A stretch of 41,504 nucleotides of DNA from a virus, in the IMG/VR virus record IMGVR_UViG_3300008217_005059, positions 1 through 41,504 of that record; one strand, given 5' to 3'. The notes beneath the pieces were generated by a model. That model had not been told where the DNA came from and made no database searches. It worked only from the letters and a program-made list of their open reading frames with translations. A program made the translations under genes and the position numbers. Below, piece after piece: positions 1,701 to 41,504 of the stretch; position 1 is the first letter of the stretch; every line of letters starts with the position of its first letter.

Positions 1701-4163
1701 TTAAGCGGCATCTGCCTTTTTAGATTTAGCTTTGCTATTACGCGCTGCTTTGCCGGCAAGTAAATCGGCAGGGTCAAAGTCGTCAACGTTAATAACGTCT
1801 AAGCGAGCTTGCTCAACAGCTGCTAACTTATCAGCTTCAGCTTGGCTTAAAATGCCGGCTTCTAAGCCCATTTGCGCCACTTTATCAAGTTGGAAGAATG
1901 GCAATTTAACGCCTTTCTCTTTACATACGCGTTCAAATAAAGGCTCTACCTCTAGTACGTCTTTAAGCGTTTGCTCTTGACGACCTACAAGGTTAAGCGG
2001 CTCGTTTGTAAGGTATACATAGCTTGCTAAACGATTACGCGTTTCGCTAGGCACTTGCAGTAATTGCGCTAGCTTATGCTCAAGTTTGTCGGTAGGTTTA
2101 CGGACCGGGCGACCAAACGGGAATAACAATACTTTTAATACGCCACGAAGTGGTGCAGATGGCATATTGTTGATTAAATCAGCAAGCGCACGTTGACAGT
2201 GGTAAAGGTGATCCTGACAGCTCCACTGAACCAGTGCAAAATCTTCTTTTTTACGGCCTTCGTCGTTATAACGTTTAAGCGTTGCAGACACTAAGTAAAG
2301 GTAGCTTAATAAGTCACCTAAGCGTGCTGAAATACGTTCTTTACGTTTAAGTGAACCACCAAATACTGCCATACTTATATCAGACATAAGTGCAAGTGAT
2401 GCACTAAAGCGTGACGCTATACGGTAAAACTCTGCCGTTTCGTCTTTGTACGGTACGCTAGTAAAGCGAGCGCCAGTAAGTGCAAGCCACTTAGTACGTA
2501 CAAGGTTAGACATGGTAAAGCCAATGTGGCCCATTAGCGCTTTATCAAATACGTTAAGCGCTTCTTCGCGGTCTTCAATTTCACACGCACTTAGCTCGGT
2601 AAGTACAAATGGATGACAACGAATAGCACCTTGACCATAAATAATCATATTACGGGTCAAGATGTTTGCACCTTCAACGGTAATGGCAATAGGTGCACCT
2701 TGATAGCCACGACCTAAATAGTTATTTGGCCCAAGCATGATCCCTTTACCGCCTAGCACGTCCATTGCATGAATGGTCGACTCGCGCATTTGCTCAGTAA
2801 GGTGATATTTAATAATAGCTGAAACAACCGATGGTTTTTCACCTAAATCTACGGCCCCCGTAGACATGCTAACTGCTGCATCAGAGCTGTAAGCGTAACC
2901 TGCAAGTTTAGCCAGTGACTCTTCAACACCTTCCATTTTACCAATTGGTAAGCGAAACTGACGACGAATACGGCTGTATGCACCTGTTGCTGTTGCAATT
3001 GTTTTAATGCCACCGGCAGAGTTTGACGGCAATGTAATTGCACGGCCCACCGATAAACATTCAACCAGCATACGCCAGCCTTGGCCAGCCATTTCTGGGC
3101 CACCAATAATGTAATCCAGGGGTACAAATATGTCTTTACCGCGAGTAGGGCCATTTTGGAACGGCACATTAAGCGGGAAGTGACGGCGTCCAATTTCAAC
3201 ACCAGGCGTGTTAGTTGGAATAAGTGCACAGGTAATGCCCGGCTCTTTGTTGTCGCTTAGTAAACCATCTGGATCTTGTAGTTTAAAGGCAAGACCAAGT
3301 ACAGTGGCCACAGGAGCAAGGGTAATGTAACGCTTGTTCCATGTAAGGCTTACACCCACCACTTCTTCGCCATTCCATTGCCCTTTACATACTACACCGT
3401 AGTCTGGAATTGAGCTTGCATCAGAACCTGCCTCTGGCGAAGTAAGAGCAAAACATGGAATTTCTTGACCACTTGCTAAACGCGGTAAGTAATGATTTTT
3501 TTGATCTTCAGTACCGTAGTGCTGTAATAACTCACCCGGGCCTAACGAGTTAGGTACACCAACAATTGACGAAAGCAACGTTGATTTACTGGTTAGTTTT
3601 TGCAGTACACACGATTGTGCAAATGCAGAGAATTCTAAGCCGCCGTATTCCTTTTTAATGATCATGGCAAAGAATTTATTATCTTTTAAATATTGCCATA
3701 CGTCCTGAGGTAAATCAGTTAGCTCATGCGTAGCTTCCCAATCGTCCAACATACTACATACAACTTCAACAGGGCCGTCGATAAATGCCTGCTCTTCAAT
3801 AGTAAGTTTTGGAACTGGATACTGGTGAAGCTTTTTCCAATCTGGGTTACCACAAAATAAATCAGCTTCCCACCAAGTTGTACCGGCATCAATAGCTGAC
3901 TTTTCGGTGTCAGACATGCTCGGTGTAACTTTTTTGAAGACCTTGAAAATAGGCTTGATAATATATTGCTGACGAATGCCAGTAACAGAAAGAGGCACTG
4001 CGATGATTAAAAAAATCACCCAGCTAATTAAACCAAAAGCACCAGCAAAGGTACCAATTAATAATGTTGCGGCAGAAACACCAAGTGCTGTGTTCCAACT
4101 CGCTCTGTGGTAAAGCGCAATGCTGAGCAGTGCGATTAAACCGAGTGTAAATATGAGTGTCAT
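1701..4163 (-). CDS. fadE: acyl-CoA dehydrogenase FadE
   Basis: 820 aa, matching the unusually long gammaproteobacterial FadE (E. coli about 814 aa). It carries out the first step of fatty-acid beta-oxidation, the FAD-dependent formation of trans-2-enoyl-CoA. The N-terminus has two or three hydrophobic segments (residues ~1-65) that should anchor it at the inner membrane. The acyl-CoA dehydrogenase core follows, with [12 protein letters not shown] typical of the flavin/substrate region and the [19 protein letters not shown] region typical of the C-terminal helical domain. The C-terminus is a Lys/Ala-rich tail. Start chosen at ATG 4163, with AAGGAA a few bases upstream. A FadR-like operator overlaps the promoter. 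The gene is a host gene bordering the prophage. Confidence 0.95.
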
Positions 4164-4660: not shown

Positions 4661-5893
4661 ATGAACTTTACAGACAAATCAATAAAAGCACTTAAAGCAA
4701 AAGAAAAACGCTACGTATTAACTGAGTCGGGCAATTATGGCGAGGGGCGCTTACAAATAAGAGTGAGTGAATCGGGCGCTGTAACGTTTCGGGTTCAGTA
4801 TCACATAAACGGCAAGCGTAAAGTAATAGGCCTTGGTAATTACCCAATTGTTGACCTTAAAAAAGCGCGTAGTAAGCATGCAAAAATATCAGCATTGTTA
4901 AGTGACAATATCGACCCGCAAGAGCACCGCTTACAAAACGAAAAAGCCAAGTTTGAATCAGCAGCTAAAAAAACAATGCACCAAATGCTTGATGATTTTA
5001 ACGTATACATAAGCACTCGCTGGGCAGCATCAACAATCGACCGCACCGAAAAACTAATAAAGCGAAACCTCACCCCATATATAGCACCCGACTTAATGCC
5101 CGACGAGTTCACAATAGATATGGCCCGCGACATTATTTACCGTGTTTATAACCGTGGCGCTAAAGAGCAAGCGCGACTGGTTCGCAGTGTACTAATGAGC
5201 ATATTAAAATTTGCCATAGATTTTGATAACTCGCCAGAGCAATATAAAAAGCCAAACCTCTACGATATTAAAACAAACTTCATAAGAGACATTAATTTTG
5301 AAACACCCAAAAATAAAGGCGAACGCTGGCTAAACGAAGATGAGCTAAAAAAAGTATGGAATGCCGACGACCTACCTTATTACACCCACCAATACATAAA
5401 ACTGGCATTATTACTTGGTGGGCAACGAGTAAATGAAGTTTACGGCTCTTGCGTTAGTGACTTTGACTTAAAAAGCAAAACATTCACCATTCCAGCCAGT
5501 AGAATAAAAGTACAACAGCGGGGCGATCACATAGTGCCACTATGCGATACCGCAATACCAATCATCAAAGAGTTAATGCAGCAAAGCGGTAAAGCAGGGC
5601 AAATGTTCCCGCATCGCGACAACCCAACAGCCACCGCACACGTATCAACATTAAGAATGGCAATATTAAGATGGTGCGAAAAGCACAGCATAAAGCCATT
5701 TAACCCACGCGACCTGCGCCGAACGTGTAAAACACTGATGGGTAAAGCGGGTATAAGTAAAGCCAATCGCGACATACTGCAGCAGCACCATAAGTTTGAC
5801 GTATCAAGCGTGCACTACGACAGATACGACTACATGAAAGAAAAGCGCCAAAGTATAGAAGTGTGGGAGAGGTTTATAAAAGCAGTTATTTAA
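4661..5893 (+). CDS. int: phage tyrosine integrase
   Basis: 410 aa, a usual length for P4/P2-type integrases with an N-terminal DUF4102-like arm-binding domain (residues ~1-85), a SAM-like core-binding domain (~95-205) and a catalytic domain. Visible catalytic positions are R256 in GGQRVNE, the R-D-L-R block at 350-353 (the usual His of HxxR is Arg here, as in some members), the HH before KFDV, and the nucleophile Y386 in VHYDRYDY. It should integrate and, with a directionality factor, excise the prophage. It reads away from the host boundary and toward the rest of the phage. The AlpA-like protein at 10621 is a candidate excisionase partner. Confidence 0.95.
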   Translation: MNFTDKSIKALKAKEKRYVLTESGNYGEGRLQIRVSESGAVTFRVQYHINGKRKVIGLGNYPIVDLKKARSKHAKISALLSDNIDPQEHRLQNEKAKFESAAKKTMHQMLDDFNVYISTRWAASTIDRTEKLIKRNLTPYIAPDLMPDEFTIDMARDIIYRVYNRGAKEQARLVRSVLMSILKFAIDFDNSPEQYKKPNLYDIKTNFIRDINFETPKNKGERWLNEDELKKVWNADDLPYYTHQYIKLALLLGGQRVNEVYGSCVSDFDLKSKTFTIPASRIKVQQRGDHIVPLCDTAIPIIKELMQQSGKAGQMFPHRDNPTATAHVSTLRMAILRWCEKHSIKPFNPRDLRRTCKTLMGKAGISKANRDILQQHHKFDVSSVHYDRYDYMKEKRQSIEVWERFIKAVI

Positions 5894-7242: not shown

Positions 7243-8502
7243 ATGATATTAAAAGTACTGGGCTGGTTTTTTGGAATAAGCTTTTTAGTTAGCGGTATAA
7301 GCAGCTTGTTTACTGGCGATGTAATTACCGGATTAATTTTATTGCTGGCTACAGCTATATGCTTGCCGCCATTGCTAAACAAAATCAACGCAGCCACAAA
7401 AGACAAGGTAGAGCTTACCCAAGGTAAGGCAGTAATAGCAGGTATTGTATTGCTGTTTATTGCAGTGGCATTTGCCACGCCACCCCCGCCACTTACTCCA
7501 GAGCAAAAAGCGGTCAAGGCTGAGCAGGAAAAAACTGAAAAAATAAAACAAGCTCAGCAAGCAAGAATTAAAAAAGAAATGGACGACCGCAAGTTAGCGA
7601 CGGAACGCGCTGCAAATAAGGTTAAAACCATAAACTATACAGTAATAGGTGAGCGCGATTTTAGCTTTAATGGTCGCGATAGGTTTGGCGTGTTTGTATA
7701 TGCGCCAGAGGCAAAAACAAAATTAGAACGCGCGGCAGTAGTAAAGCAAGCTGCAATTGATCTGCAAAAAAGAACAAACGCAGACTTTACGGATGCAACA
7801 CTTGAGGTAGCTGATTTTAGCTATCAGCAAGGCAACGTATTAGCAATGGCTGACTATGCACCAGACGGCTGTGGGGTTAGCGGTGAAGACTGTACAGGAG
7901 AAAAGTTTAAAATAGAGGTTTCAGATGCGCAAGTTACGGCCTTGCAAATAGATGTGCTCAGGGAGTGGGAAAAACTAAAAGGGCAGTACCGAGGCAGTAA
8001 AGGGTACTTGAACCTAGAGGATGAAGCTAAAATGACAGCTGTTATTGCTAAAAAACTTGGCATAGCAATTGGCGATACTAAAACGCCTTACACAGGAATG
8101 TTAATAAAAATTAGCGAAGACGAGCTAAAAGGCATAAATAAAATTAATGCCGTGATGATTAAAGGCGCAGCACTGGAAGAGCCAGAAAAAAATAACCCTA
8201 GCTGGTATGAGCCAGGTAATTCAGGCTTGATTGATGAAAGAGCGGCTGAATGGCATAAAGCAACTTACAAGCAACAAGTATCGGTTTGCGCTGACTATGT
8301 GGCGCACTTAAAGCAAATAGACAGGCTTAACGCGGCTATAGCTGACAGCATAAACACCAAAGACGATGTAAAGCAGTTTGCAGTTGCGCTTGCAGAAGGT
8401 ATGAATATAGGACTTAAAGACAGCCCACACAAAACAGGGAAAAACCCACTAATTAGCGAGGCTATGGCCGTAGCAGTAGTCGCCTCAGGCTGGACTAAAT
8501 AA
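7243..8502 (+). CDS. membrane-anchored protein of unknown function (DUF4875-like middle region)
   Basis: 419 aa with two N-terminal membrane segments (about residues 3-45 and 61-79), a charged helical linker (~85-125) and a soluble C-terminal part. Residues ~130-220 (TVIGERDFSFNGRDRFGVFV onwards) resemble DUF4875. The last ~180 residues contain a hydrophilic helical region ending in a hydrophobic segment. It has its own spacing from neighbours and a terminator behind it, so it is probably a lysogenic conversion (moron) gene expressed from the prophage. The start ATG 7243 follows AAGGAAAGGGC. Function unknown; superinfection exclusion or defence are possible guesses from the membrane location only. 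Confidence 0.7.
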   Translation: MILKVLGWFFGISFLVSGISSLFTGDVITGLILLLATAICLPPLLNKINAATKDKVELTQGKAVIAGIVLLFIAVAFATPPPPLTPEQKAVKAEQEKTEKIKQAQQARIKKEMDDRKLATERAANKVKTINYTVIGERDFSFNGRDRFGVFVYAPEAKTKLERAAVVKQAAIDLQKRTNADFTDATLEVADFSYQQGNVLAMADYAPDGCGVSGEDCTGEKFKIEVSDAQVTALQIDVLREWEKLKGQYRGSKGYLNLEDEAKMTAVIAKKLGIAIGDTKTPYTGMLIKISEDELKGINKINAVMIKGAALEEPEKNNPSWYEPGNSGLIDERAAEWHKATYKQQVSVCADYVAHLKQIDRLNAAIADSINTKDDVKQFAVALAEGMNIGLKDSPHKTGKNPLISEAMAVAVVASGWTK

Positions 8503-10529: not shown

Positions 10530-10589
10530 TTCCTCTTTGTTTTGGTTTGTGAATATTTCGCACTTGCAACATACCAAAACAGAGAGGGA
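10530..10589. promoter_or_regulatory. divergent control region with 17-bp-arm inverted repeat
   Basis: Arms 10530-10546 and 10573-10589 match at 15 of 17 positions as inverted repeats; the inner GTTTTGGT/ACCAAAAC is exact. The centre is 26 bp. Both flanking genes therefore carry the same ACCAAAACA-AGAGG leader upstream of their starts. It is a good candidate operator for one of the two flanking regulators. Confidence 0.55.
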
Positions 10590-10620
10590 TTTTATAGAAA
10601 TAGAAAAGGGAAGGTGTGAT

Positions 10621-10890
10621 ATGAGCCAGTCAAATGTAGCCGATCACTACCGCCGCAATTTACGCGGTGAAGTGATTACGATTAATGACCGTTATTTACG
10701 CCCAGCCGATGTGGCAGAAAAGTGTGGTATTCACCGTTCAACAATTTACCGCTTAATGGAAAGCGGCCAGTTTCCTAAATCGCACAAGGCATCAAGCGGC
10801 CGTGTGGTTTGGGTTGAAGCTGATATTGAAGAATGGATGCGCTTAGGCGCTGAAATGTTTAAAGAATTTTACGGGCAACAAGCAAGCTAG
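10621..10890 (+). CDS. AlpA-like transcriptional regulator/excisionase
   Basis: 89 aa with a MerR/AlpA-type helix-turn-helix: YLRPADVAEKCGIHRSTIYR (residues ~23-42), then a basic beta-hairpin and the VVWVEADIEEWM segment typical of AlpA. AlpA proteins activate integrase/excision genes or act as excisionases in P4- and P2-like elements. The reading frame is open far upstream, but the ATG at 10621, behind GGAAGGTG, fits the domain start. It reads opposite to the winged-helix-like gene. Confidence 0.8.
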   Translation: MSQSNVADHYRRNLRGEVITINDRYLRPADVAEKCGIHRSTIYRLMESGQFPKSHKASSGRVVWVEADIEEWMRLGAEMFKEFYGQQAS

Positions 10891-11175: not shown

Positions 11176-11568
11176 ATGGCAAACACAGCTATTAACTACC
11201 CAAACCAAGCGCCATTAAAAGCCGTAACTGGGCGCCACATACCAAAAGGGCTTGCCGAAATAAAAGCGCTGTTAGGCAGTGAGCGCCACATGCCAGAGTA
11301 CGTGTATACCAAAGTGCTAAGCGAGCAAGAGCGCACATTAGTATGTTTTGCGGCAGGTTTAAAGCGCCACCATTTAGAAAGCGGCTTTGCTAATTTTGAT
11401 GCAGATACTCGCTTAAAAATTCACAAGGCTATTTTGCAAATGGAGCAATTAGTAAAAGCATTTACCGATGCTAACGCCATGGCCCCCGCTAAGTTTTTAC
11501 AAAACGCCCCGCGCGTTGAAGCCAGCACTAACTATTCACATTTAACTATTACAAAGGCGCAAGCATGA
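11176..11568 (+). CDS. hypothetical early protein
   Basis: 130 aa, two bases after the preceding gene and overlapping the methylase gene by ATGA, so it is clearly part of the operon. The middle (LSEQERTLVCFAAGLKRHHL and DADTRLKIHKAILQMEQLVKAF) is helical. It resembles small early proteins of P2-like phages in size and place, but I cannot name it. Confidence 0.6.
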   Translation: MANTAINYPNQAPLKAVTGRHIPKGLAEIKALLGSERHMPEYVYTKVLSEQERTLVCFAAGLKRHHLESGFANFDADTRLKIHKAILQMEQLVKAFTDANAMAPAKFLQNAPRVEASTNYSHLTITKAQA

Positions 11569-12155
11569 GCTCAACTAATCGCGGAACCCAGCGCAATGCG
11601 GATGATTACTACGTCACACCGCATTGGCTAATTGAAGATTTTTTAGCAGCATTTAGTGAAAACTGCCGTTTTAATTTTGACGAAAAAGCATACCCGTTAA
11701 TTTTAGACCCAAGCGCAGGCGGGTGTGAGCAACACCGAATGAGCTATCCAACGGTATTAGAAAAACACGGCTTTGGTGTAAGTAGCTGGGATATTCGCAA
11801 AGATTCACGCGCTAATTTAACAGGCGTTAACTTTTTAAACGTGCCTAGTTATGAATCAATCAAATACGACATGATCATCACCAACCCACCCTTTAACCAA
11901 GCGCAAGCGTTTACCGAACATGCGCTCGAAATGGTTAAAGAGGGCGGTTTAGTGATTATGCTGCAACGCCTTAACTGGCTAGGTAGCCAAAAGCGTAAAC
12001 CCATGTGGCAAAGCTTACCGCTTGCGGCCGTTTATGTTCACAGTAAGCGCCCAGGCTTTGACCCCGCAAAACCAAGTAAAACCGACTCAACCGAATACGC
12101 CCACTTTGTATTTTGCAAAGGCTACGAACTAGCCCCTGAGCTTTTTGTAATTTAA
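11565..12155 (+). CDS. phage DNA adenine methyltransferase-like protein
   Basis: 196 aa. The S-adenosylmethionine motif appears as DPSAGG (residues 48-53) and the catalytic motif IV as NPPF (107-110), the order and NPPF form of N6-adenine methylases. The remaining length is short, with no separate target-recognition domain, and the motif block LVIMLQRLNWLGS fits the central strand. It probably methylates phage DNA against host restriction or for regulation. No cognate restriction gene is next to it. Target sequence unknown. Confidence 0.8.
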   Translation: MSSTNRGTQRNADDYYVTPHWLIEDFLAAFSENCRFNFDEKAYPLILDPSAGGCEQHRMSYPTVLEKHGFGVSSWDIRKDSRANLTGVNFLNVPSYESIKYDMIITNPPFNQAQAFTEHALEMVKEGGLVIMLQRLNWLGSQKRKPMWQSLPLAAVYVHSKRPGFDPAKPSKTDSTEYAHFVFCKGYELAPELFVI

Positions 12156-36630: not shown

Positions 36631-37205
36631 ATCAGGCAATAACCGGCATAATGACCAATGCTGGCAAGGCATACATAACAACAGCAACGCTGCAAAACAA
36701 AGGGCTTGAAGTAACAGAGCTAGTGTTTGCAAACATACCCGGGTTAAACGAGCAAGCAGCCCGCAACCCAAACGAAAAAATGCCGGGCGGCGCACAAATA
36801 GTTTACCGCCGCAACATAGATACGTCGGGGTATGTTGATGCAAACACGGTCGCATGGGCAGTAGTGCTAGAGCAAGACATCGGCGACTTTGACTATAACT
36901 GGATAGGCCTAGTTACGCGCGACGGCACGCTGCTAGCAGTAGATTACTTACCGCTACAGCGCAAGCGACAAGGCGTAAACAACGTGCACAACCGCTCGTT
37001 CGTTTTAAAGTTTGCAGCAGCCGCAGCCCTAGCCCGCATTACCATTCCAGCGCAATCGTGGATGTTCGACTACAGCCCGCAAATTGACGCGCTAACACTG
37101 TTAGCAACCAGCAATGCAACGGCACAAATAAACAACATGCGCCGCACTGTGCGCAATTACTTTTTAAATAAAAACTTCAGCAATTTCAGCAAGGAACTAT
37201 CATGA
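36627..37205 (+). CDS. short tail-fibre collar protein (DUF3751-like N-terminal domain)
   Basis: 192 aa. GIMTNAGKAYITTATLQNKG and GDFDYNWIGLVTRDGTLLAV are the N-terminal domain of phage tail-collar fibre proteins. It stops after this domain plus a helical end and has no repeats or receptor-binding tip. It therefore needs a partner, probably the next gene, with which it overlaps by ATGA. Confidence 0.8.
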   Translation: MNQAITGIMTNAGKAYITTATLQNKGLEVTELVFANIPGLNEQAARNPNEKMPGGAQIVYRRNIDTSGYVDANTVAWAVVLEQDIGDFDYNWIGLVTRDGTLLAVDYLPLQRKRQGVNNVHNRSFVLKFAAAAALARITIPAQSWMFDYSPQIDALTLLATSNATAQINNMRRTVRNYFLNKNFSNFSKELS

Positions 37206-38419
37206 GCGCAGAGCAAATAAACCAGCTAGTAACCGCAGCCGACCAGCTAACAACAGCAATCGAAGGCAAAGCAGCCGAAATCGACAGCAAAACAACGGAG
37301 CTAGACCAGTTCGTAAAGGCCAAGGCGGACGAAATGGCAATCGTTGCATCAGAAGGTTACCGCAACGCAATCGAGCATGCGTCAGGTGGCCGCAATAAAG
37401 TGATCATCGACGACCAGGGCAATCCAAATGTAATGGTGGCAATTGCCCCGTTCACATACGAAGAGTTGGCGGAAAAAATTCAAGAAAAATACAGCGTAGA
37501 CTTAAACCTAGGCACTGGCATTCCAACCATGTTTATGCGCAACGGTGTTCAGCTAGGCGAAGTGTACATTGGTAAATACCTAGCATCAGCAGGAGCAAAT
37601 GGCGGCTGCAGTGTTATCGGTGGCGTACAGCCGCGCACATCAGTTAATTACGACACAGCAAAAGCACTATGCAACAACAAGGGCGACGGCTGGCACATGA
37701 TGAGCATTCACGAATGGGCAGCTATTGCACTGTGGTCTTATGCAAATGGCACAGTGCCGCGCGGCAATACAAACTACGGTCGCAGCCACGAAAACAAATT
37801 AGAAACAGCGCGCCGTGGCGACAACGGCTTGCCAGGCGATTCATCAGGAACAGCCAGAACCGATACCGGTAAAGGCCCTGCAACATGGTCGCACGACCAC
37901 ACCGAATGGGGCATTCAAGACCTAGTGGGTAACGTGTGGGAATGGTTAGACCAAATGATGCTAGACGAAGGGCAGATCATTACTACGCTTGACAACAACC
38001 CAGCAGTAATTGAAGAAAACTGGAACAAGCACACGGCGTTTTTCGATTCGCCAACGGCAAACACAGAAGGCACCGGCAGTGCTGGATCTCCAAAGCTTAG
38101 TAACAGCGTCACAAATCGCAATGGCCCAGTGGGTAATGATGCGCAAGAGCACCCAACGCTAAGCAACGGGCATTTTGCAGCAGTCGAAAAAGCGCTCGAC
38201 TACAGCAAAATAGAGCTACTACGCCGCTTGTTAATCGAGTCAGAGTCAACCACCACGGTTGGTGGTTACATCTACTGTCGAAATTATGGCAATCGTTCCC
38301 CGCGACGTGGCGGCAACTGGAGCAATGGCTCGCTCGCTGGGCTGGGCGCGCTCAGTCTGAGCGATGCGCGTTCGTATGCGAGCAGTGATATCGGTTTTCG
38401 TCCCGCTTTCTTTGCGTAA
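37202..38419 (+). CDS. C-type-lectin/FGE-fold tail-fibre tip protein with variable C-terminus
   Basis: 405 aa. Residues ~1-60 are helical coiled-coil-like, ~65-130 form a connector, and ~135-405 are a formylglycine-generating-enzyme-like C-type lectin fold (GDGWHMMSIHEWAAIALW, IQDLVGNVWEWL). The end RRGGNWSNGS...IGFRPAFFA is the usual C-terminus of DGR target proteins. It is most likely the receptor-binding tip of the tail fibre; a catalytic FGE role is unlikely as it is a phage structural operon gene. The last ~45 codons look like a DGR variable region (see that entry). Confidence 0.82.
   Translation: MSAEQINQLVTAADQLTTAIEGKAAEIDSKTTELDQFVKAKADEMAIVASEGYRNAIEHASGGRNKVIIDDQGNPNVMVAIAPFTYEELAEKIQEKYSVDLNLGTGIPTMFMRNGVQLGEVYIGKYLASAGANGGCSVIGGVQPRTSVNYDTAKALCNNKGDGWHMMSIHEWAAIALWSYANGTVPRGNTNYGRSHENKLETARRGDNGLPGDSSGTARTDTGKGPATWSHDHTEWGIQDLVGNVWEWLDQMMLDEGQIITTLDNNPAVIEENWNKHTAFFDSPTANTEGTGSAGSPKLSNSVTNRNGPVGNDAQEHPTLSNGHFAAVEKALDYSKIELLRRLLIESESTTTVGGYIYCRNYGNRSPRRGGNWSNGSLAGLGALSLSDARSYASSDIGFRPAFFA
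38282..38416 (+). other. candidate DGR variable repeat (VR)
   Basis: Starts near residue 361 (AAT TAT GGC AAT) and runs to the end of the gene. Candidate variable codons AGC (S374), AAT (N375), CTC (L378), AGT (S385), AGC (S387), GAT (D388), TAT (Y392), AGC (S394), AGT (S395), GAT (D396) all end in C or T and can arise from AAC/AAT by replacing A only. The block is adenine-poor and uses ctg/ggg/gcg codons unlike the rest of the operon. The IGFRP end is the invariant end. The template repeat is not in the window. Confidence 0.7.
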
Positions 38420-38439
38420 TTGGTTATTGAAATTTGAAC

Positions 38440-38457
38440 CCCGCGCGATAGCGCGGG
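38440..38457 (+). promoter_or_regulatory. GC-rich hairpin with GATA loop after the VR
   Basis: CCCGCGC (38440-38446) pairs with GCGCGGG (38451-38457) around GATA, a GRNA-type tetraloop. It is 21 bases after the stop codon. No run of Ts follows, so it is not a terminator. DGR targets such as that of phage BPP-1 have such a hairpin/cruciform downstream of VR that helps target recognition. Confidence 0.65.
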
Positions 38458-38485
38458 CATAACTAACAATTTAAAAGGTAGAACT

Positions 38486-38773
38486 ATGTTTACATACATT
38501 TACAAGGGCACAAGCCACAGCAACACAAGCAGCGAATACATGCAATCGCTAGGTATGGACCAAGAGCAAATTGAATCTGTATTAAATCAACAGCAGTTTG
38601 AGCTAAGCCAAAACCTAGTAAAGCGCCAAGCGGCCTACAAAGCCGAATCAGACCCGCTATACATGGAAGCGCAGTTCGAAGGCACGCCAGAGTCACACCA
38701 AAAATGGCAAGACAAAGTAGCCGAAATTAAAGCGCGCTACCCACTACCAGAAAGCACAGCAGAAAATGCATAA
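38486..38773 (+). CDS. small protein after the fibre gene, possible fibre assembly protein
   Basis: 95 aa. FTYIYKGTSHSNTSSEYMQS then MDQEQIESVLNQQQFE looks like the small proteins often found downstream of phage tail-fibre genes. Too short and too different to call an Avd accessory protein of a DGR. ATG 38486 follows AAAAGGTAG. Overlaps the next gene by eight bases. Role inferred from place only. Confidence 0.6.
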   Translation: MFTYIYKGTSHSNTSSEYMQSLGMDQEQIESVLNQQQFELSQNLVKRQAAYKAESDPLYMEAQFEGTPESHQKWQDKVAEIKARYPLPESTAENA

Positions 38774-39395
38774 CATAGCGCTATGCTACCACCAAGCCGC
38801 CGCCCCTTGCTCAATGCAAGAGGGCGCGCAGCTGCTTGCATCGGCAATAAAAGACGACTCGCGCACAGATAAGCCAGCACAATATAACGCGCTGCTTTTA
38901 TCTGTAAGCGCAAATAGCTCAGCAGCACTGGCAAGCTCGCTCAGCACAATAAATGAATACTGCCCAATAGCCGAGTTCATCGCCTGCGCGCAATACGGCC
39001 AAAGCCAAAGCACCCTAAAGGAAACCCAACTTACAACGTATGACGGCCAAAGCGTAGAATGGCAAATAAATACCCTGCAAAACCTATTACCAATTCGTGA
39101 GCAGCTAATAGCGGACGAACTCGCCACAGTAAATAATAGCGGCAAGCAATTAATTACTACCATTGACGATGCATTAACCCAAACCGCAGAACTAAAAACC
39201 GCCCGCGACGAGCGGTTAAATCAAGCACAGTTCACCGCTCAAAGTAGCGCCGTAAATGTGCAATTAATAACAGCAGGTAGCGCAAAACAGCTAGCCGACT
39301 CAGTAGCAAGCAAAGGCAATGATCACAACTACTGGGCGCTCTGCCTATTCGTTGGCGAGCAGGGCGAGCTTAATCAAATTAAAGAGGTATTATGA
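38766..39395 (+). CDS. hypothetical tail-region protein
   Basis: 209 aa, overlapping both neighbours, so clearly in the tail operon. First ~90 residues are Ala/Ser-rich; the centre is helical (NLLPIREQLIADELATVNNS, DALTQTAELKTARDERLNQ); the end is a small beta region (YWALCLFVGEQGELNQIKEVL). Seen as an unnamed gene before the baseplate hub genes in K139-like phages. Not recognised. Confidence 0.55.
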   Translation: MHNIALCYHQAAAPCSMQEGAQLLASAIKDDSRTDKPAQYNALLLSVSANSSAALASSLSTINEYCPIAEFIACAQYGQSQSTLKETQLTTYDGQSVEWQINTLQNLLPIREQLIADELATVNNSGKQLITTIDDALTQTAELKTARDERLNQAQFTAQSSAVNVQLITAGSAKQLADSVASKGNDHNYWALCLFVGEQGELNQIKEVL

Positions 39396-40578: not shown

Positions 40579-41504
40579 TACAGCGCTACTTTCCAGAGCT
40601 AAGCGAGCGTAAACACCTGCCGCAATTGGCGCGTATTGAAAAAATATATGACCTACCAAGCGGTGGCGCAGCCATTAGCACCGCATTTAGGCCACTAAAA
40701 GCCGCCGACGTACAGCTATTAAACCCGCTAACAGGCGAGCAATTAGCCGTGCCTATCTTTCAGCAAGTCACACTCGGCACAGGACAAGCATCCGACCACG
40801 GATTATTAAACGAACCAGCGCCAGGCATGCATTGTTTAATACAGTATATTGATGGCCTAAACAGCCATGCCGTGATCACCAATTTACTGCCATGGCAAAG
40901 CCTAGTGCCCGAGCACAAACGAACAGATGTAACGCTGCAGCAAAGTAACCGCAGCAAAATACAAGGCAGCGACGGCAACTGGCACACCACAACGGACGGC
41001 GAAATAACCCAAACCAGCGACACAAATAAAACAACAGCACGCAGCAGCGAGCAAAATTACCACGAGCGCAGCGCCAGCATAGCCACGCATGACGTTTTAA
41101 AAATAGACGGCAACCAAGTAACCGAAGTAATGGGTGCATTAAAAACCGTAGTCGGTGAAAAAGCCTTAATCGTCGCACTTGAAGGGTTATTACTTGGCAG
41201 TAAAAAACAGGTAGATATTGAAGCCAGCGAAAACATGAACCTAACCACACTCAAAACCCTACACGCCAAAGCCACCGAACTGGCAAAGGTAGAAGGCAAA
41301 ACAGTGTGGCTAGGTAATAATTCAGTAAACGTGGCTCAAGTACTCCTTGATTTAATTACCCTAGTAAAAGACATAAACCAAAGCCTAGAAAACCACGGCC
41401 ACAAAGACCAAGGCGCAGGCCCACCAATAACCAAAGGCGAATTTACAGGCCATAAATCAACAGCCAGCAGCTTAAAAAGCACACTAGAGCCAATCGTAGA
41501 GTAA
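40551..41504 (+). CDS. V: baseplate spike protein (P2 gpV / Mu gp45-like)
   Basis: 317 aa, starting inside the end of the hub gene and ending exactly with the last base of the window (TAA). N-terminal OB-fold part (IEKIYDLPSGGAAIS to MHCLIQYIDGLNSHAVI) and a C-terminal beta-helix-like repeat part (NRSKIQGSDGNWHTTTDGEI, then KQVDIEASENMNL) make the membrane-piercing tip. Near the end, HGHKDQGAGPP may hold a metal-binding His cluster. The gene is complete. Confidence 0.82.
   Translation: MVKQAIKRLIQRYFPELSERKHLPQLARIEKIYDLPSGGAAISTAFRPLKAADVQLLNPLTGEQLAVPIFQQVTLGTGQASDHGLLNEPAPGMHCLIQYIDGLNSHAVITNLLPWQSLVPEHKRTDVTLQQSNRSKIQGSDGNWHTTTDGEITQTSDTNKTTARSSEQNYHERSASIATHDVLKIDGNQVTEVMGALKTVVGEKALIVALEGLLLGSKKQVDIEASENMNLTTLKTLHAKATELAKVEGKTVWLGNNSVNVAQVLLDLITLVKDINQSLENHGHKDQGAGPPITKGEFTGHKSTASSLKSTLEPIVE

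Follow-up and report, generated by a model that had tools for sequence, protein, structure and literature searches.

Hairpins placed just past the variable repeat (VR) are an established component of the targets of diversity-generating retroelements (DGRs). According to Guo et al. (2011, PMC3240598), such hairpins have a GC-rich stem of 7-10 bp and a 4-nt GRNA loop on the sense strand, lie 4-34 bp past VR and are required for efficient retrohoming, and the hairpins collected in Fig. 5 of that report include that of VHML, a relative in terms of the antireceptor described below. The hairpins of BPP-1 and of the phage set of Guo et al. resemble the one analysed here in the GC stem, the GRNA loop, the place past VR and a stem sequence that is free as long as it is paired, and differ from it in that the accessory variability determinant (avd), the template repeat (TR) and the reverse transcriptase (RT) do not adjoin the present hairpin (PMC3240598). 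The same distinction applies to the Pseudoalteromonas phages ACA1 and ACA2 (PMC10612066) and the Vibrio phages VHML and VP58.5, which share with our locus the homologous antireceptor, the VR, the hairpin distance and the gene order, but retain the avd-TR-RT cassette. Searching the main text of the ACA paper (PMC10612066) turned up no reference to a hairpin.

Two described systems separate the target from its cassette. In the BPP-1 deltaATR phage, avd-TR-brt was deleted and complemented by avd, TR and brt supplied from a plasmid (PMC3240598), leaving, as at our locus, VR and hairpin without a cassette. The present arrangement differs in being natural and common to several phages, and in that its helper is inferred and was not seen beside an RT-less target; with these differences, the locus is by analogy the natural counterpart of that laboratory phage. 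In Thiohalocapsa PB-PSB1, incomplete or remote DGR loci were inferred to be active in trans, and its cassette-less targets likewise have a VR equal to the TR at all non-adenine bases (PMC10907252), although there the helper resides in the same cellular genome, whereas here it would be another phage. No published case of RT-less phages diversified in trans was recognised in a literature covered mainly by titles and abstracts.

Structure and position of the hairpin

The stretch of DNA analysed, hereafter the window, is an IMG/VR virus record 41,504 bases long. Its left end is host DNA, in which positions 1701-4163 have matches of up to 96% among genomes of the genus to which Pseudoalteromonas sp. 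FUC4 belongs, and to the right of it lies a prophage that encodes a tyrosine integrase (4661-5893), a GPA-type replication protein and tail genes of HP1/ACA1 type. Early prophage genes at 7243-8502 and 11565-12155 gave a DUF4875 protein and a weak methyltransferase-like match. The features surrounding the hairpin are listed in Table 1; the antireceptor, which is the variable protein, is 74% identical to that of ACA1, 62% to that of VHML and 90-93% to those of the nearest IMG/VR loci.

Table 1. Features of the window around the hairpin
Feature	Position	Strand	Remarks
Antireceptor (variable protein), FGE-sulfatase family	37202..38419	+	Pfam PF03781, E 2e-6; homologue of ACA1 gp42 and VHML ORF35
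VR, 100-nt core compared with TR	38308..38407	+	Adenine-only differences from the TR of L009
Spacer of 32 nt from VR end to hairpin, stop codon included	38408..38439	+	28-43 nt in RT-carrying targets
DGR target-site hairpin (very probable)	38440..38457	+	7-bp G-C stem, GATA loop at 38447-38450
Scar/leader at the avd-TR-RT site of RT-carrying relatives	38458..38485	+	Ends with the gp45 ribosome-binding region
gp45 homologue; the gene after RT in ACA1 and VHML	38486..38773	+	84.6% identity to ACA1 gp45
gp46 homologue, tail gene, HP1 orf33-like	38766..39395	+	84% identity to ACA1 gp46; ACA1 annotation

The hairpin arms, CCCGCGC (38440-38446) and GCGCGGG (38451-38457), form 7 bp that are 100% G-C, and the next possible pair, A38439/C38458, is unpaired. 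The hairpin starts 21 bases downstream of the antireceptor stop codon (38417-38419) and 33 nt past the VR end, with 32 nt in between, in an intergenic gap of 66 nt, and gp45 begins 29 nt past it. The stem (7 bp, G-C), the loop (GATA), the distance (33 nt) and the presence of a VR before it all agree with the definition of Guo et al., and the VR 3′ end, CGTCCCGCT, is probably the IMH (initiation of mutagenic homing) end. The bases 3′ of the hairpin (CATAACTAACAATTT) are free of a T tract, and nothing was listed at this place by the terminator scan. The sequence check thus bore out the initial annotation, which had described a 7-bp all-GC stem with a GATA loop, 21 bases past the gene and lacking a T tract.

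On both strands of the window, this was the only perfect stem of at least 7 bp with a GRNA loop, and a search of the window for the 18-mer that allowed 3 mismatches returned, besides the hairpin, only its own reverse complement (0.02 expected). Folding of the whole 121-nt region was unremarkable (z -0.8); only the local hairpin stood out. Among 108 Pseudoalteromonas genomes, the 18-mer with at most 1 mismatch occurred twice, both times behind a homologue of the antireceptor gene, that is, the VR gene, and no occurrence elsewhere was found.

The variable repeat compared with template repeats

Over its final 100 nt, the window VR differed from the TR of L009, an RT-carrying relative, at 9 of 22 adenines and at none of the 78 other bases (Fisher p 2.6e-7), although the divergence between the window and L009 was 13.3% in the neighbouring 300 nt of the antireceptor gene. 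These adenine-only differences independently back the VR call of the initial annotation, and the DGR that last rewrote this VR was, we infer, of the L007/L009 type. Upstream of the 100-nt core, the window VR already departs from the TR at non-adenines, so the rewritten tract starts within the repeat. In this 5′ part, a CTA (Leu) codon of the TR reads CGA (Arg) in the VRs of the window, L005, L006, L045 and L047, a non-adenine change near the 5′ limit of rewriting that extends to RT-carrying loci.

Hairpins next to targets with a complete DGR

In relatives carrying RT, VRs were paired with TRs by an ungapped comparison that tolerated mismatches at TR adenines. One collection step retained 80 of 287 loci; RT was found in 115 loci, rows were obtained for 109 and a usable VR/TR pair for 105, L094, L137, L143 and L196 having been dropped before this total, and the removal of duplicates left 83 distinct targets. 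Between TR and VR of these 83 targets, 1036 of 2135 adenines differed against 44 of 7449 other bases, a bias that the pairing method itself favours.

A hairpin was scored when it had a GRNA loop and a stem of at least 6 bp within 80 nt past VR. By this criterion, 77 of the 83 distinct targets carried one, starting 28-43 nt from VR, whereas the controls gave 0/81 after TR, 4/863 at other gene ends and 20/8300 in shuffles. Because the loop had been fixed in this search, it was repeated with any loop of 3-8 nt, and the best hairpin had a 4-nt GRNA loop in 73/83 targets and in 0/81 cases after TR. Moreover, the stems covaried: over 34 distinct stems, 225 of 238 cells were Watson-Crick, compared with a mean of 138 and a maximum of 158 after shuffling. 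The six targets in which no hairpin was scored, among which L166 misses by a single mismatch, indicate that hairpins of such kind are not universal.

The element in the window is therefore very probably a DGR target-site hairpin of the kind described by Guo et al., as had been proposed from the window sequence, and by analogy it presumably acts as in BPP-1. The conservation of hairpin, loop and VR distance near other DGR targets, which the initial annotation had named as its check, was found in these 77 targets and in the any-loop search. Against a DGR reading of the hairpin stands the residual activity that BPP-1 retains without it (PMC12875486). The case named as refuting, that of DGR-less prophages with the same hairpin at unrelated fibre genes, was not encountered: related DGR-less prophages do carry the same hairpin, but it follows the same VR gene in the loci inspected.

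Loss of the cassette and the shared scar

In ACA1, VHML, VP58.5 and L007/L009 the order is antireceptor-hairpin-avd-TR-RT-gp45. In the window, tblastn with avd and RT of ACA1 matched nothing except the VR itself, the RVT_1 profile had no match in the window record, and no second VR copy that could be a TR was present within the record. RT, TR and avd, whose absence the initial annotation of the hairpin leaves unmentioned, were accordingly all lacking when the record was assessed for a complete DGR; this record is a virus fragment that finishes at the end of gpV, at 41504, and a cassette beyond this point or elsewhere in the host genome could still exist.

The same scar was found in 7 further loci (L002, L004, L005, L006, L008, L050 and L087). 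In the resulting 8 loci, window included, all VRs are different and 7 hairpins are perfect, and the segment from the VR end to the gp45 start differs from that of the window by one base in L002, L004-L006, L008 and L050, and by three in L087. A scar of another type was found in L010-L012. In the whole genome of Pseudoalteromonas sp. FUC4, which holds L050, the ACA1 RT query gave no match besides the VR itself; in that of L051 it gave, besides the VR, only RTs of 26-29% identity, and neither a DGR RT nor a TR. RT of this type was likewise not found in the 108 Pseudoalteromonas genomes, in which the best partial match was 47%.

At L003:11661-12323 and at the same place in L031, a reverse-strand HNH-like gene, whose match to Pfam HNH_3 is below the cut-off, replaces TR and RT while avd is kept. 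The VRs of these two loci differ from each other, and the antireceptor of L031 (10001-11199) matches as two overlapping pieces, which suggests a copy with a frame change.

Hairpin retention and freshness of the VR in RT-less loci

By the same criterion, hairpins were retained in 77/83 RT-carrying targets and in 13/25 RT-less or avd-only targets (p 1.5e-5), and this less frequent retention supports a hairpin function tied to the DGR. The comparison omitted the near-identical copies L011, L012, L015, L016 and L029, as well as L030 (a fragment) and L094, and included both L013 and L014, which are mutually close. Altered hairpins were seen in the RT-less loci L087 (a C.A mismatch), L113 (a GTTA loop) and L018 (a shortened stem), and no GRNA hairpin was present in L013-L017, L019, L028, L032, L051 and others. 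Past the VR of L017, L032 and L051, another GC-rich hairpin (GCGCGAT...ATCGCGC), followed by a T-containing sequence, occupies the place of the GRNA hairpin.

Pairwise comparison of the scar-sharing loci revealed differences of 5-15% in the 300 nt upstream and of 8-19% in gp45, whereas only 0-5 of the 78 non-A sites of the VR differed when L006 was set aside, and the 79-nt segment between VR end and gp45 had 0-3 differences. The ratio of VR to flank divergence was 0.11 in the window and 0.7-1.4 in the majority of RT-less lineages whose hairpin is altered or lost, and the latter values indicate that the non-A sites of a VR are not conserved by themselves. As exceptions, the VRs of L032, L051 and L053 are fresh although no GRNA hairpin follows them, and the ratios of L028 and L087 are also low. 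Across RT-less loci, the association between hairpin state and VR freshness gave p 0.059, or 0.007 with L006 scored against a foreign TR, a choice made post hoc; L032, L051 and L053 oppose the trend, and most hairpin-less loci have no close TR for this comparison.

A VR tract of foreign origin

In L006, an RT-less locus known from a single metagenomic contig (metagenome 3300036466), the final 71 nt of the VR (4715-4785) have no non-A mismatch to a foreign TR, that of L147/L167, versus 13 non-A mismatches to the TR of its own family. None of the other VRs in the set of 94 showed such a foreign-TR match. When adenines were treated as wildcards, 65 nt of the tract were found in 5 viral contigs, namely 4 RT-carrying phages, twice in each, and L006, once. 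A DGR of the own type (L094) and one of the foreign type (L167) are both borne under source id 2802429360, which we take to be one isolate genome.

Alternative explanations

Taken together, the 18-bp inverted repeat is very probably the cis-acting target-recognition hairpin, or cruciform, of a DGR VR. If the analogy with BPP-1 holds, mutagenised cDNA copied from a TR would enter where VR ends on its 3′ side, a site that the GRNA-loop hairpin immediately beyond would render an efficient recipient. In the window, VR and hairpin form an orphan target, with avd, TR and RT missing between hairpin and gp45. Explanations outside DGR biology fit less well. The 66-nt intergenic location, together with the other GC-rich hairpins at the same place in L032, L051 and L017, would suit an RNA-level element between antireceptor and gp45, such as a terminator, a processing signal or a device for translational control, but the GRNA loop and the 28-43 nt spacing go with VRs and not with TRs, tail genes on the same strand continue downstream, and neither a T tract nor a terminator call was obtained, so that an RNA-level role is very unlikely and an intrinsic terminator in particular is ruled out by the last two results. 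Short palindromes are frequent in bacterial genomes, and the repeat might thus have been a chance or generic one; this has a negligible probability, being contradicted by the two occurrences in 108 genomes, both behind the antireceptor gene, and by the shuffle and gene-end controls.

Two readings that both accept the DGR nature of the hairpin are given equal weight. It is quite possible, if short of probable, that the orphan target is active, the DGR of a co-resident phage supplying Avd, RT and TR RNA and the hairpin letting the VR serve as recipient. Eight loci share one scar and yet each has its own VR; the VR non-A sites of these loci (L006 apart) are far closer than their flanks and gp45; the low ratio of the window is set against the mostly high ones of lineages with a lost or altered hairpin; and the L006 tract equals a foreign TR at all non-A bases. 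Retrohoming in trans also works in the laboratory for BPP-1 deltaATR (PMC3240598) and was inferred between loci within one genome (PMC10907252). On the other hand, no genome uniting an RT-less target with a matching DGR was found, searching the complete L050 and L051 genomes gave neither DGR RT nor TR, no close RT appeared in the 108 Pseudoalteromonas genomes, L006 is one metagenomic contig, the VRs of L032, L051 and L053 are fresh without a GRNA hairpin, and fresh VRs could be imported by homologous recombination with RT-carrying relatives. An equally plausible reading is that of a recent relic, in which the VR would have been rewritten in cis before the loss, or VR and hairpin recombined in from RT-carrying relatives, the hairpin now being idle. 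Antireceptor distances of RT-less and RT-carrying phages are intermingled in a mosaic-like manner, the segment from the VR end to the hairpin is identical in the RT-carrying L007/L009 and in the scar-sharing RT-less loci except L087, which makes a crossover possible, hairpins have decayed in RT-less lineages (L087, L113 and L018, with others replaced), and the L050 and L051 genomes have no DGR in trans. The relic reading is opposed by the near invariance of the scar region, whose flanks are about 10% different, and by L006, where an exchange would have to fall within some 7-8 nt of common sequence at the 5′ edge and 5-9 nt at the 3′ edge, as read from the sequences. Shared stretches of this size are short for RecA. 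They are near the cited minimum for retrohoming, 8 nt (PMC3240598). The short shared edges of L006 thus favour use in trans, whereas the lack of a genome with both helper and target and the intermingled antireceptor distances favour a relic or recombination.

Significance

As an element, the hairpin is a further member of an already known class; what is new is its retention after DGR loss, with fresh VRs and one VR of foreign-TR type. These loci may tentatively represent phages of a kind that relies on borrowed hypermutation machinery, having shed avd-TR-RT and kept VR and hairpin as an address, so that co-resident DGRs, including those of other lineages, would rewrite the receptor-binding protein in trans, and L006 would be the imprint of one such event. 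If trans-acting DGRs do serve orphan targets, phages would share tail-fibre hypermutation as a resource that some of them can exploit at no cost of their own. Surveys that start from RT miss orphan targets, and Roux et al. (2021) state that their own approach would not detect remote targets (PMC8144416). The hairpin combined with the adenine-only comparison offers a route to finding them, and an RT-less lysogen with an RT-carrying helper phage would offer a natural setting in which to test retrohoming in trans and DGR/hairpin compatibility.

Variation among template repeats

Some templates also vary among themselves. Eight positions, 7 of which are adenines, separate the L094 TR (around 10569-10668) from that of L009, a pattern that would be expected if this template had itself undergone rewriting or conversion, and the L094 hairpin has a GACA loop. 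Between the TRs of L129 and L133, 5 of 6 differences have A in the former and G in the latter, so that the L133 template, too, has lost adenines.
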